Assembly (NCBI GenBank): GCA_019116245.1 | Contig: DXCC01000012.1 | Span: 1-32,114 of the forward strand | DNA from: Candidatus Tidjanibacter faecipullorum | Lineage (GTDB): Bacteria; Bacteroidota; Bacteroidia; Bacteroidales; Rikenellaceae | Direction of reading: 5' to 3' | Length of the DNA: 32,114 nucleotides | Shown: positions 4,184 through 32,114 of the stretch, one piece after another | Layout: every line of letters starts with the position of its first letter | Numbering within the stretch: the stretch's first letter is position 1 | Notes under the pieces: model-generated | Database searches by the model: none | The model's input: the letters and a program-made list of their open reading frames with translations, nothing else | Told to the model about the DNA's origin: nothing | Position numbers and translations under genes: made by a program

Positions 4184-4548
4184 ATGGAAAAGCTAAAGAT
4201 TGTTGGGACCTTATAGAAAAATATGAGACCCTCGCTTCAGTTCAAGAATTAAGGACGGAAGTTCGTCAGGATTTTTTGGAGCTACATGCATTGTGTGGCG
4301 ATAAATGTGAAAGTTGGCGGTTGTTGATGTGTTATGAGTTTGTGAAAGCGTTTGATGTGTTTTTGTCTAATCCCGATTATTATGATGTGTCCCATAGGAT
4401 CGGTGTGTTGGAGTCTTGTGTGGATCAAGATGGATGGGATTTGTTTCCAAGGATGGTTAAGTTGTATCGGCAAGCCGGAGGGGGGCTGAGGATGTGTTTT
4501 GATGTTTCTTGTGTCGGAACGAGATGTGTATATTTTGTTCCTGTGTGA
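4184..4548 (+). pseudogene. small hypothetical gene, apparently frameshifted just after its start
   Basis: An open frame runs from 4171 to 4548 with well-balanced protein-like composition (it begins GKAKDCWDLIEKYETLASVQ), but it contains no ATG or GTG before a TTG at 4276. The ATG at 4184 is well placed behind a candidate promoter, yet reads only MEKLKIVGTL before TAG. Adding one A to the AAAA run at 4188-4191 would join that ATG to the long frame and give about 121 residues. The long frame is soluble, with several cysteines and tryptophans. I do not recognise the family. It meets the HEPN-like gene tail to tail with 16 bases between the stop codons. Alternatives are initiation at TTG 4276 (90 residues) or a sequencing error in the A-run. 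Confidence 0.5.
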
Positions 4549-4564
4549 GGCGGTAGGATGGTGA

Positions 4565-5230
4565 TTATGGGGGAAATTGAATGTTGAATTTGCGCTTATA
4601 TGCATTATCCATGTTGCGCATTATGTAGTGTACGGTTTTAAAGTATCGAGGGGCTAATGTGGTGGCTATCTGGGCTTGGTTTCGCTGGGCAAAAACATAG
4701 TTGGATATTTGTACAGGTGTTCCTGTAGGGGGTTGATGATTGCGTATCGCTGCTTTTGTTGCTTCGAAGTTGAATAAGTAGCCTCGAGAGGTCTGGGTTG
4801 TGTTAGGGGCAATTTTTGCGATTGTAGCGTGGGAATATGGATTGCGAATATGTTTTCGTAATGTGTTTAATAGGCTTTGGTCTTGTTCTGAAATGAGTTC
4901 GTACTCTTTGGCAGATTGGATTGATTGGCTTAGGGTGAGATTGTCAAAGCGCTGGATTGCTTCAATGGATTTAATAGTTGCTTTGGGGTGTCCAATGGGA
5001 TAATCGTGGGTGTAGTGGATGATTAAAGCATGTTTTAAGGCTCGTTCTAATAAGTGATTGGTGGTGCAAATGCAGGCTTGATGTAGTTCTAAAACCAAGC
5101 AGTCTATGCATTCGTTAATTAGAGTTGATAACTCTGTGAAGAGGTAGAATTTGTGCTGGTAGTAAGGAGCGTAATGTGTAGCGTTTGTCTCGAACTTGTT
5201 GGTGGGGTGTGTGTTTGTGTCGTGTAGCAT
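4565..5230 (-). CDS. HEPN-like protein, possible ribonuclease or abortive-infection factor
   Basis: The protein has 221 residues. Its first 140 look all-helical, and they end in LRKHIRNPYSHA, giving R129-N130-x-x-x-H134, the R-x4-H motif of HEPN proteins. That motif is the metal-independent RNase active site in toxins and abortive-infection proteins such as RnlA, AbiF/D and the MntA-HepT type; non-catalytic HEPN proteins also exist. The C-terminal 80 residues have no recognised domain. There is no partner nucleotidyltransferase next door, so this is not an obvious HEPN-MNT pair. The gene is AT-rich compared with the phage core, which points to recent acquisition. It lies immediately downstream of a strong hairpin that ends the repressor operon, so it may be transcribed by read-through. 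RNase activity is inferred from the motif only. Confidence 0.6.
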   Translation of the reverse strand: MLHDTNTHPTNKFETNATHYAPYYQHKFYLFTELSTLINECIDCLVLELHQACICTTNHLLERALKHALIIHYTHDYPIGHPKATIKSIEAIQRFDNLTLSQSIQSAKEYELISEQDQSLLNTLRKHIRNPYSHATIAKIAPNTTQTSRGYLFNFEATKAAIRNHQPPTGTPVQISNYVFAQRNQAQIATTLAPRYFKTVHYIMRNMDNAYKRKFNIQFPP

Positions 5231-5285: not shown

Positions 5286-6356
5286 TTAGAGGTAGCTTTT
5301 GACCGTTGCGATGATCTCGTCGGAGAGTTTGTAGATGTCGTTCAGCGAGGTGATCTGGTGTTTGGTGCCGACCTTGTTCTCGTCGAACGTCTCGACGTAT
5401 TTCTTGCCGCCGTTGAAGTGCAGACGGCAGATGGGCTTGCGATTGTTGTTGTCGAACAGGATGGCGCAGTAGGATTGCGCATCGCGCAGGGTGACGCGTT
5501 CGATGTCGACCGTGTTGCACAAGATGGCCCGCACAATGTAGAAGCCCTGGTACTCTTCCTCCGTCGTGACGATCAGCTTGTCTTTGGCCGATGCTTCGTC
5601 CTCCGACTGCGGTGCGTCGGCGGCCGGTTTGTCGATCGAGGGAACCTCCGGCGTGATGGCCGATTTCAGCCGTTCGTTGACGTAGTCGTTCGTGTATTGC
5701 TGGAAGGCGCGCTGCACCATCGGGCGGAAGTCCTCCAGAACGTTTTTCGTCACCATGCCGTCGAACACCTGTTTGGTGAGGAACTTGACGAACTCGTCGG
5801 AGGGCTCCTGGGTTTGGTGGATGATGTAGTTCCGGATGGCGTTGATGTATTTCATCTCGTTGGCCGAGTTCAGAATGACGTCCGTGTTGTACTGGTCATG
5901 GCAGAACTGCTTCAGCTTCTCGATGTGGCTGTCCTTGAGGTTGAGGAGGTCGATCTCGAAGAAGGGGCGCTCGTCCATTTTGTTGGGCGCCTCGAGGTCG
6001 GTGTAGAAGCGGTAGACGATACCGTTGGTCAGTACGCCGAATTTGGCCGGCGAAACATGGTAATAGCGGAACAGCTGGGCGGTGTGTTTGTTGAGGTCGG
6101 CGCTCCAATGCTTGCATTCGATCAGCATGATCGGCTCGCCGTTCAGGCATACGGTATAGTCGATTTTCTCGCCCTTTTTCGTGCCGTAGTCGCAGTCGCA
6201 TTCGGGGGTTACCTCTTCGGGGTTGAAGATGTCGTAACCGAGCGTCTGCAGGAACGGCAGTACGAACGATGTTTTGGTGGCTTCCTCGGTCTTGACGTTG
6301 TCTTTCAGTTTGACGATACGGGCCGCCAATACTTGTAATGATTCTTTGAAGTCCAT
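5286..6356 (-). CDS. HsdR N-terminal / COG4748-like restriction nuclease-type protein
   Basis: The product has 356 residues. The N-terminal half matches the type I restriction HsdR_N / COG4748 pattern: a helix with TEEATKTSFVLPFLQTLGYD, then Asp66 in EKIDY, a strand, and Glu80-x-Lys82 in LIECKHW, which together form a PD-(D/E)XK active site. There is no helicase domain and no methylase or specificity subunit nearby, so it is a stand-alone protein rather than a restriction system. The C-terminal part (about 255-356) is a separate small domain after an Ala/Glu/Asp-rich linker. It starts 24 bases after the repressor stop, so it should be made in the lysogen with the repressor. A role in blocking incoming DNA is an inference from the active site and this position. 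Confidence 0.75.
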   Translation of the reverse strand: MDFKESLQVLAARIVKLKDNVKTEEATKTSFVLPFLQTLGYDIFNPEEVTPECDCDYGTKKGEKIDYTVCLNGEPIMLIECKHWSADLNKHTAQLFRYYHVSPAKFGVLTNGIVYRFYTDLEAPNKMDERPFFEIDLLNLKDSHIEKLKQFCHDQYNTDVILNSANEMKYINAIRNYIIHQTQEPSDEFVKFLTKQVFDGMVTKNVLEDFRPMVQRAFQQYTNDYVNERLKSAITPEVPSIDKPAADAPQSEDEASAKDKLIVTTEEEYQGFYIVRAILCNTVDIERVTLRDAQSYCAILFDNNNRKPICRLHFNGGKKYVETFDENKVGTKHQITSLNDIYKLSDEIIATVKSYL

Positions 6357-30573: not shown

Positions 30574-31639
30574 ACGTTGCGTCATAGCCAGCGCGATCAG
30601 CGACAATGCCCTGGCGCGGGCCTTCTCCGAGCTGGTGGCCGAGCGGTGGGACGACCGGGATCTGACCCCGCTGCTGCCTTATCTGGTGGACAGCTGCACG
30701 CCTGCGGTGTTGCCCTATCTGGCCGATCAGTTCGACGTGGCCGGTCTGCAGGGCTTTGCCGTGGCCGAGACCGAGGCCCAGCAGCGCGACCTGATCAAAC
30801 GCTCCATTGCCCTGCACAAGTACCTCGGTACGCCCTGGGCGATCCGCGAGGCGTGCCGTACGGTCGGCTTTCCCGTCGTCCTGCTCGAGGAGGGCGTCAC
30901 GGCCACCCCCGACGGCCCGGCCGATCCGGACGATTGGGCGCGCTTCCGGGTGCTCGTGGAGGGCGACACGACCCGCTACATCACCGCCGAGGCGGCGTGC
31001 CGTCTGCGCCGCTTTGTGGAGAGCTACAAGAACGAACGGTCGCACCTCGTGGATCTCGGCTTCTGGCACACCTTCTCCGACCGGCTCCTGCGTGAGGAGA
31101 GTGCGCCGCACGAAGAGCTGGAGGTGCTCCACCTGTCGATGGTGCCCAATCCGGTGATCCTGACCCCGAAGGGCACGGCCGTCACCGTGGCCGTTGAGGC
31201 CAATGCGCCCTGGGCGATCGGGGCTACCTCCTGCGACTGGGGCGACGGTTCGGGCGACCGGCTGACCCTCGACTTCACGGGCGAGGCGGGGAGCAGCCGG
31301 CTCGTCGTCACCTCCGATCCCTACGTTGCCTCGCCGACGGGCTGGGGCAGGGCCTACAGCGCCGCCTACGGCCCGGCCTACCACCTGCCGGAGGGGCTCT
31401 ACGACCGCGAGCTGCGCGTTGACATCCTCACGACGGACGGCCGCCGCTTCGGCCGTCTGACCATCCGGCAGCGCGCCGGGCGCAACAATGCCTACAGCCG
31501 TGCCTACTCGAATGCCTACAACCTGTTCGACCACGCGCCCTATGTGCGGGTCGATGCGCCCGATATCGCCCTGGGAGCTTCGGGCGAGGAGAGCGTTGAG
31601 GTGCAGGTCTCCTCGAACACGGCCTGGAAAATCGAATAA
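30566..31639 (+). CDS. tail protein I with C-terminal BACON-like extension
   Basis: The first 175 residues match P2 gpI: LVDSCTPAVLPYLADQFDVAGLQGFAVAETEAQQRDLIKRSIALHKYLGTPWAIREACRTVGF. P2 gpI ends near 176 residues; this protein goes on to 357. Residues about 186-250 resemble a BACON/Ig-like domain (LTPKGTAVTVAVEANAPWAI). A Tyr/Ala/Asn-rich middle follows (GRAYSAAYGPAY, NNAYSRAYSNAYN). The last 32 residues (326-357) are only the first strands of another BACON domain, cut off after SSNTAWKIE. gpI attaches fibres to the baseplate wedge, so these parts probably form a docking point. Confidence 0.83.
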   Translation: MDKRCVIASAISDNALARAFSELVAERWDDRDLTPLLPYLVDSCTPAVLPYLADQFDVAGLQGFAVAETEAQQRDLIKRSIALHKYLGTPWAIREACRTVGFPVVLLEEGVTATPDGPADPDDWARFRVLVEGDTTRYITAEAACRLRRFVESYKNERSHLVDLGFWHTFSDRLLREESAPHEELEVLHLSMVPNPVILTPKGTAVTVAVEANAPWAIGATSCDWGDGSGDRLTLDFTGEAGSSRLVVTSDPYVASPTGWGRAYSAAYGPAYHLPEGLYDRELRVDILTTDGRRFGRLTIRQRAGRNNAYSRAYSNAYNLFDHAPYVRVDAPDIALGASGEESVEVQVSSNTAWKIE

Positions 31640-31833
31640 CCAACCCTTCAAAAGCAAACAGCATCATGGCAAAACCATCGTGGGTAACCACCCAACCCTC
31701 CTCCGGAACCGGCAACGGCTCCGTGAAAGTGAGCGCAAGCGCCTACACGGGGCGCACGCAGCGCTCCGGCAGTCTCACCTATACGGCCGAGGGCGCCGAA
31801 GAGGTCGTCCAGACGGTCAGTCAGCAGGGCAAG
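31544..31833 (+). other. BACON-like domain apparently split across two genes
   Basis: The end of gpI (31544-31636) encodes the front half of a BACON domain ending in SNTAWKIE. The next gene begins at 31666 with its back half (KPSWVTTQPSSGTGNGSVKV through VVQTVSQQGK). The two halves are in different frames and separated by a normal-looking leader. Confidence 0.5.
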
Positions 31834-32114
31834 GCGGAGTTCGTCACCGTCCAGAACGCCTCGGCCACCAAGGCCGGCGGTTCGGTCACCATCACCGGCA
31901 AGTCGAACTCCAGCAAGCTGACCTTTGCCCTCGGTACGGGCGACCTCACCATCTCTCTGCCGGGCACCTACACGGCGGCCGGTAAGTCGGCCACCAGCGG
32001 CACGGCCATCTCCGGCGACCCGGGCGGCAGCGCCGAGTTTGACTTCTCGATCACGATCAGCGTACCGGCCAACGGTACGATCGCCGCGCGCAGCCGTCAG
32101 ATCACCGTGACGAC
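31666..32114 (+). CDS. BACON-containing tail fibre or fibre-attachment protein (partial)
   Basis: The frame is open to the end of the window (149 complete codons). It starts with BACON-like sequence (MAKPSWVTTQPSSGTGNGSV, TGRTQRSGSLTYTAEG, VVQTVSQQGK) and continues with Thr/Ser/Gly-rich Ig-like sequence. BACON domains occur in Bacteroidetes glycoside hydrolases and in gut phage tail proteins, where binding to mucin or glycans has been proposed. The position behind gpI is where fibre genes lie. The leader CAACCCTTCAAAAGCAAAC resembles the one before the decoration gene. The C-terminus, and with it the receptor-binding part, is not visible. Confidence 0.72.
   Translation, partial: MAKPSWVTTQPSSGTGNGSVKVSASAYTGRTQRSGSLTYTAEGAEEVVQTVSQQGKAEFVTVQNASATKAGGSVTITGKSNSSKLTFALGTGDLTISLPGTYTAAGKSATSGTAISGDPGGSAEFDFSITISVPANGTIAARSRQITVT

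Follow-up and report, generated by a model that had tools for sequence, protein, structure and literature searches.

The stretch of DNA analysed here, hereafter called the window (32,114 nt), is the complete contig C8 of the 1.86-Mb genome of Candidatus Tidjanibacter faecipullorum and carries a P2-like prophage in which the gene of a gpI-type baseplate protein is followed by a fibre gene, hereafter called fib1 (Table 1). One immunoglobulin (Ig)-like BACON domain is divided between these two genes, its front half (strands A-B) closing gpI and its back half (strands C onward) opening fib1, and a second is divided in the same way between fib1 and the next gene, p3. Judged by sequence, the unit is made up of a carrier (here gpI), a fibre and a cap with two split domains.

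Table 1 Features of the gpI-fib1 region (positions in the window)
Feature	Position	Strand	Basis or remark
gpI-type baseplate protein, 357 aa	30566..31639	+	Pfam Tail_P2_I, E 1.6e-19; PHROG tail proteins
Complete internal BACON-like domain of gpI (BACON1)	31124..31477 (about)	+	AlphaFold2 (AF2) model; p3 back-half model
Tyrosine-repeat segment NNAYSRAYSNAYNLFDHA ahead of the half-domain	31484..31537	+	Sequence; similar segment closes p3
BACON front half (strands A-B), gpI C-terminus, then TAA	31541..31636	+	Sequence; homologue score
Leader between gpI and fib1, 26 nt	31640..31665	+	fib1 starts in the -1 frame with respect to gpI
Fibre gene fib1, first 149 codons, running off the window	31666..32114	+	Continues on contig C20 to ...TSNTSWSVE and stop
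BACON back half (strands C onward), fib1 N-terminus	31666..31833	+	Pfam BACON profile 8-61 of 61, E 1.7e-9
Central Ig-like domain of fib1, truncated where the window stops	31834..32114	+	

The phage P2 gpI family (PF09684) was matched over residues 14-158 of gpI (E 1.6e-19). The last 32 residues of the protein are YVRVDAPDIALGASGEESVEVQVSSNTAWKIE, finishing with SSNTAWKIE before the stop codon; no Pfam match was obtained for this C-terminal half, the Pfam BACON profile being only 61 positions long, and a close gpI homologue from an uncultured Tidjanibacter metagenome-assembled genome (L023) scored 18.4 bits with a front-half model derived from fib1. The fib1 protein begins with MAKPSWVTTQPSSGTG, and the part of it coded in the window was matched by the Pfam BACON profile (PF13004) with 38 bits for the whole protein, the curated cut-off being 25, profile positions 8-61 aligning with residues 3-54. 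The start of contig C20 is an exact 131-nt overlap with the window end, and fib1 continues there, closing with a front half, LTVTVTSNTSWSVE, directly before its stop codon. The fibre protein is thus laid out as an N-terminal back half, one whole BACON-like domain and a C-terminal front half. The last A of the fib1 TAA also opens the ATG of p3, which codes for 78 amino acids and begins with a BACON back half (MATKTIMWGDGTADTLTV). No close sequence relative of fib1 was found among PDB chains, the best being 3zmr (E 0.0088).

In BACON arrays of the hosts, a gap of 2-6 residues within one chain separates the end of the front half from the start of the back half (55 such junctions, from 23 of 82 open reading frames (ORFs) of 120 amino acids or more, scored with the end and the beginning of the fib1 profile), and both gene boundaries therefore fall in one domain loop. 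A fused counterpart is found in gpI, where ANAPWAI-GATSCDWGDG corresponds to SNTSWSVE, the stop codon and MATKTIMWGDG at the fib1/p3 boundary, and BACON1 is the natural fused comparator for the split junction. In the AF2 model BACON1 had a predicted local distance difference test (pLDDT) of 79-90 over residues 191-250 and of 84-87 over residues 281-300, with strands A, A' and B and later ones; its back part scored 35.7 bits with the p3 back-half model, and 87 nt of it are 76 % identical to C20:300-386. In contrast to this well-predicted whole domain, the terminal half of gpI had a pLDDT of 50-65 alone. Only this contrast was used, since the gpI model was poor overall (mean pLDDT 59.9, predicted template modelling score 0.35, 12 sequences). 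The front strands at the end of gpI and the back half opening the next gene, as described in an earlier note on this DNA, were confirmed, and position 31833, at which the note had ended the divided domain, is the exact end of the 56-residue back half. Its statement that neither gene has the missing half did not hold, because gpI also contains the complete BACON1 and the fibre protein ends, on C20, in a front half.

The tyrosine-rich motif ahead of the half-domain in gpI resembles the C-terminal tail of p3 of the same phage (AYSRAYSNAYN in window 31484-31537 and SRAYSMSYNTNY in L007 474-512). At L033 the motif DYNNDYNDDY is present in both carrier and p3, and in the phage record cr111_1 the carrier has YNDTVATFDGVKAGYW and the C-terminal end of p3 is YNGIVSTFNDTKAGF; L070 is among the loci with this resemblance. 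An insertion with AYSAAYGPAYH lies inside BACON1 (about 31322-31390 of the window); G019 has a similar one, and G266, G246 and G248 are without it.

The split unit was found in about 70 loci, in P2-like prophages, Crassvirales and other viral contigs. A scan of viral contigs for fib1 gave 65 loci, and p3 as a query against the viral contigs gave no match. After nine duplicates and two loci without the fib1 start (L099, L132) had been removed from 80 fib1 loci (79 plus L023), 69 remained, among them some near-identical pairs (e.g. L089/L093, L117/L119, L079/L110). A front half closes 62 of the 67 complete fib1 ORFs. Upstream candidates could be scored at 68 of the 69 loci (one had none) and downstream candidates at 63. 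With a front-half profile trained only on fib1 C-termini, the upstream ORF reached at least 5 bits at 41 of 68 loci, compared with 2 of 311 control genes, these two being L105, a BACON front half, and L138, which is not clearly one; with a looser front-half motif the counts were 56 of 68 and 18 of 311. The back-half model gave at least 5 bits for the downstream ORF at 47 of 63 loci and for 4 of 262 controls, all four of which are BACON back halves by sequence, one being the fib1 of L135 itself, reached via its carrier. By these scores, the front half ahead of fib1 is not there by chance. An adjacent carrier half was present at 58 of the 69 loci, 56 identified by the motif and two by eye (L105, L135). 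Of the remaining loci with more than fib1, eight were searched over the whole contig with the carrier profile, and seven of them proved to have a terminal front half at some distance from fib1 (at most about 8 kb), each time 0-1 residues before the stop codon; such non-adjacent halves can meet only as separate proteins.

The order carrier-fib1-p3 was observed in the window's genome, in G019 (a relative in the same genus), G266, L024, L025, L029, L030 and L021, in cr111_1 (Crassvirales), in three other phage records and in three additional genomes of the family to which the window belongs. Relatives of fib1 at 38-46 % identity occur in cr111_1 (Steigviridae), cr127_1 (Crevaviridae) and four further distinct phage records; in five of the six, fib1 lies beside a carrier, and in four p3 comes next. 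In the phage collection, every matching record was named as uncultured or lacked a named host strain. At E 1e-25 or better, fib1 was present in 6 of 268 genomes of the family, all six with a carrier and, by eye, p3, and in a sample of 395 genomes of the phylum it was found at this threshold only in the window's own genome. The record csAssE-Sib (L074) has fib1 alone; its fib1-like gene (4480-5136) is annotated as a glycosyl hydrolase, a label which is probably due only to the BACON similarity.

The start of fib1 at the point where the gpI domain breaks off could suggest one protein made by programmed frameshifting or readthrough, or an assembly or sequencing error. The carrier-fib1 gaps (1-103 nt), however, fall in all three frames (31, 14 and 13 of 58), the leaders in G019 (30 nt) and G266 (18 nt) are in frame yet contain stops, and the halves are non-adjacent in seven contigs. 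Frameshift, readthrough and assembly error are hardly credible on these grounds and were rejected; the earlier note had likewise taken the split not to be simply a frameshift. A fused form among homologous phages, for which the note had proposed a search, was not found either: 25 or more open in-frame codons upstream of fib1, as a fusion with the carrier would have, were present at 0 of 69 loci.

The association of the half-domain with gpI was followed in 268 genomes of the family, five of which have gpI, the window's included, and in further loci from genome and viral contigs. As a query of genome contigs, gpI alone retrieved nothing, and alignment A1 retrieved seven loci, four of which correspond to G019, G246, G248 and G266. 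The half-domain was present in all eight gpI proteins directly followed by fib1 (G000, G019, G266, L024, L025, L029, L030, L021) and in none of nine that are not (G246, G248, L031, L032, L034, L035, L037, L038, L033). In this tally the near-identical L035 and L036 were counted once and L021 had entered via the fib1 search; L005 (gpI-like but distant, and lacking the half) and L039 (28 % identity to gpI) were left out. The gpI of L029 is missing the inner BACON domain and keeps the terminal half. At L033 gpI is without the half, which is borne by another protein between gpI and fib1. Together with the tally, this locus indicates that the half goes with fib1 and not with gpI.

When the last 36 residues were removed, 61 carriers fell into 25 BLAST groups, many of the sequences being too short for firm grouping. 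Clearly dissimilar carriers are gpI, the L033 type, a 198-aa type (L071), a 297-aa type (L105) and small repeat proteins. By sequence, the carriers are dissimilar proteins with a common C-terminal half-BACON tag. It could be supposed that a tandem BACON array once underwent gene fission, that the leftover halves, folded or dangling, have no function and that the proteins attach by other surfaces, since tandem BACON arrays are common in hosts and fission is easily imagined. This is improbable, because the same cut, unfused to the carrier, recurs in 69 of 69 loci of divergent phages, the tag is common to dissimilar carriers, gpI has it only where fib1 directly follows, and prediction gives the gpI half no fold on its own, although the model is weak. 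The division of one BACON domain between gpI and the next gene, as proposed in the earlier note, is a conserved feature tied to the fibre gene being present. A role of gpI as the general partner of the fibre was not supported, the carrier being mostly another protein in the phages examined. A gpI that ends elsewhere beside an unchanged fibre start, which the note had regarded as speaking against its idea, does occur at L033, yet there a half sits on another protein directly upstream of the fibre, in keeping with docking.

Some carriers end in a tandem pair of BACON front halves (L105 1541-2434, L135 1519-2397, L139 2222-2491), which perhaps dock two partners. A second split BACON chain, with a front-half end followed by a back-half start, lies on the same contig in L105 (3612-5228) and L135 (3664-5629). 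On the large contigs L022 and L139 some chain members are longer (580, 868 and 534 aa) and have joints of the same kind. At L022 2019-2174 a 51-aa gene codes for little beyond a BACON front half and is followed by the 580-aa protein, which opens with a back half.

The explanation that we favour, and regard as somewhat more probable than not, is a three-protein tail-fibre joint made by split Ig-like domains and docked in gene order by strand complementation. The carrier, here the baseplate protein gpI, ends in BACON strands A-B; fib1 starts with strands C onward, contains one whole BACON-like domain and ends in strands A-B of the next domain; and the cap protein p3 starts with strands C onward. 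The chains would be translated separately, each front half would dock into the back half of the following protein, and baseplate, fibre and cap would thus be joined in gene order by strand complementation. The halves, the exact cut point, their conservation and the linkage of the gpI tag to fib1 are firm as sequence observations; from these we infer physical docking, its order and the role of the chain as an adhesive fibre.

The pairing of carrier with fib1 and of fib1 with p3 is favoured by their adjacency, by the existence of two front classes and, weakly, by the whole BACON domain of gpI. The front halves of carriers and of fib1 proved separable (39 of 39 each by leave-one-out, L139 and L022 being outside the set), which is to be expected if they have different partners. 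The whole BACON domain of gpI has a p3-type back in ten of ten cases and a front which scores higher as fib1-type than as carrier-type in seven of ten, which agrees weakly with a pairing of the fib1 front and p3.

An alternative, rather unlikely in our judgement, is that the C-terminal front half of fib1 fills the back half of the same or, by swapping, of a neighbouring fib1, and that the carrier pairs with p3; fib1 would then be held beside a carrier-p3 joint or would polymerise. Several observations that weigh against docking in gene order favour this pairing. The BACON domains of the hosts join a front like the fib1 C-terminus to a back like the fib1 N-terminus; the model of the fib1 monomer is of high confidence, both termini included (mean pLDDT 95.2), and the two halves of the chain may therefore pair with each other; and at L074 and L130 neither carrier nor p3 was found. 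Gene order and the overlap of the fib1 stop with the following start in 26 of 67 cases, on the other hand, favour neighbours as partners. The combination of p3-type back with a mostly fib1-like front in the whole gpI domain also speaks against self-pairing, as does the fib1 model itself, the short C-terminal strands of which (169-172, 188-191) are more like those of the free half of gpI (327-330, 347-350) than like those of the whole domain (190-193, 197-199, 206-212).

Further findings count against the gene-order pairing. The carriers of L139 and L022 score as fib1-type fronts (14.5 and 28.6 bits) and the carrier profile found nothing there, so that the two front classes do not hold at these loci. 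Distance-matrix coevolution picked no pairing: the difference C-N minus C-F was above zero in 81 % of subsamples, and F-P minus N-P in 33 %. In cr127_1 carrier and fib1 are present and no back half can be recognised at the start of the third protein (-2.1 bits). The carrier-profile search found no carrier on the 22-kb fragment of L137; at L120 none was found, with a p3-like gene downstream. The fib1-like genes of L074, L130 and L120 have a C-terminal extension. The specific pairing of the gpI half with the N-terminal half of the fibre, as advanced in the earlier note, was not supported, since the fibre's own C-terminal half could pair there instead. With either pairing, the gpI half needs a partner on another protein. 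The earlier idea is partly supported, and the phenomenon is wider than had been proposed.

Donor-strand complementation or exchange is known in pili, namely chaperone-usher pili and the type V pili of Bacteroidales, strand complementation being classic for pili. TasA fibres are likewise reported to be a donor-strand complementation system (PMC9674648). As in pili and TasA fibres, the incomplete Ig-like domain of one subunit would be completed by strands of another, setting the order of the chain. Unlike there, two C-terminal strands (A-B) would be donated here, the acceptor is without its N-terminal part, and the putative donor and acceptor come from a single BACON domain divided within one loop, in phage tail proteins. 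At the sequence level the acceptor lacks strands which another polypeptide carries, and the C-terminus of fib1 carries such strands too.

BACON-type domains (PF13004) in phages of Bacteroidota are shared with the tandem repeats of crAssphage (PMC6949934), which in the accessible text are domain repeats with no split between genes, whereas here domains are cut between genes. In phiCrAss001 the N-terminus of gp22 sits in the gp38/gp39 hub and further tail fibre proteins are less well resolved; adaptor proteins join fibres to the crassvirus tail there too, and no split domain is described in the accessible sections (PMC10172136). BACON proteins near structural genes, including those of Crassvirales and myoviruses, are the subject of a report on gut-phage adhesins, the accessible portion of which concerns epithelial binding and describes no split domains (PMC13370021). 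No description of strand complementation between phage tail proteins was found in the open-access literature, to which the search was confined, subscription papers being outside its scope, and 'donor strand' together with 'phage tail' gave 0 papers in that literature. The proposed split Ig-like joint between phage tail proteins is widespread and, as far as the open-access literature shows, undescribed.

There is about an even chance that the arrangement is a general connector of Bacteroidota phages, in which the C-terminal half-BACON would be a portable docking tag on dissimilar tail proteins (gpI, small repeat proteins, short adaptors), recruiting a conserved fibre-cap pair via matched split domains. 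As the two types of junction are for the most part distinct, the order of the fibre would be written into the split Ig domains, and chains could be lengthened or moved to new carriers. If strand complementation between phage tail proteins is real, it would explain the attachment of BACON fibres in gut phages, some Crassvirales among them, allow the partners of fibres and carriers to be recognised by a sequence rule in phage genomes that lack annotation, and provide a natural, possibly orthogonal, pair of split-domain connectors.

The prophage on C8 further includes an integrase, a lambda-family portal, a capsid protein, gpU and gpD together with gpI, and a tape-measure-like protein whose match was below the curated cut-off. 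The last 131 nt of the window are identical at the start of C20 (L007, 1-131) and the end of contig C25 (window 31979-32114; L006, 9839-9974). The sequence before the copy on C25 is host-like, and this copy is either an assembly-graph overlap or a stray fibre fragment fused to host DNA. A protein with an HSDR_N (type I restriction) domain is coded on the minus strand at 5292-6356 of the window, near the integrase end of the prophage.
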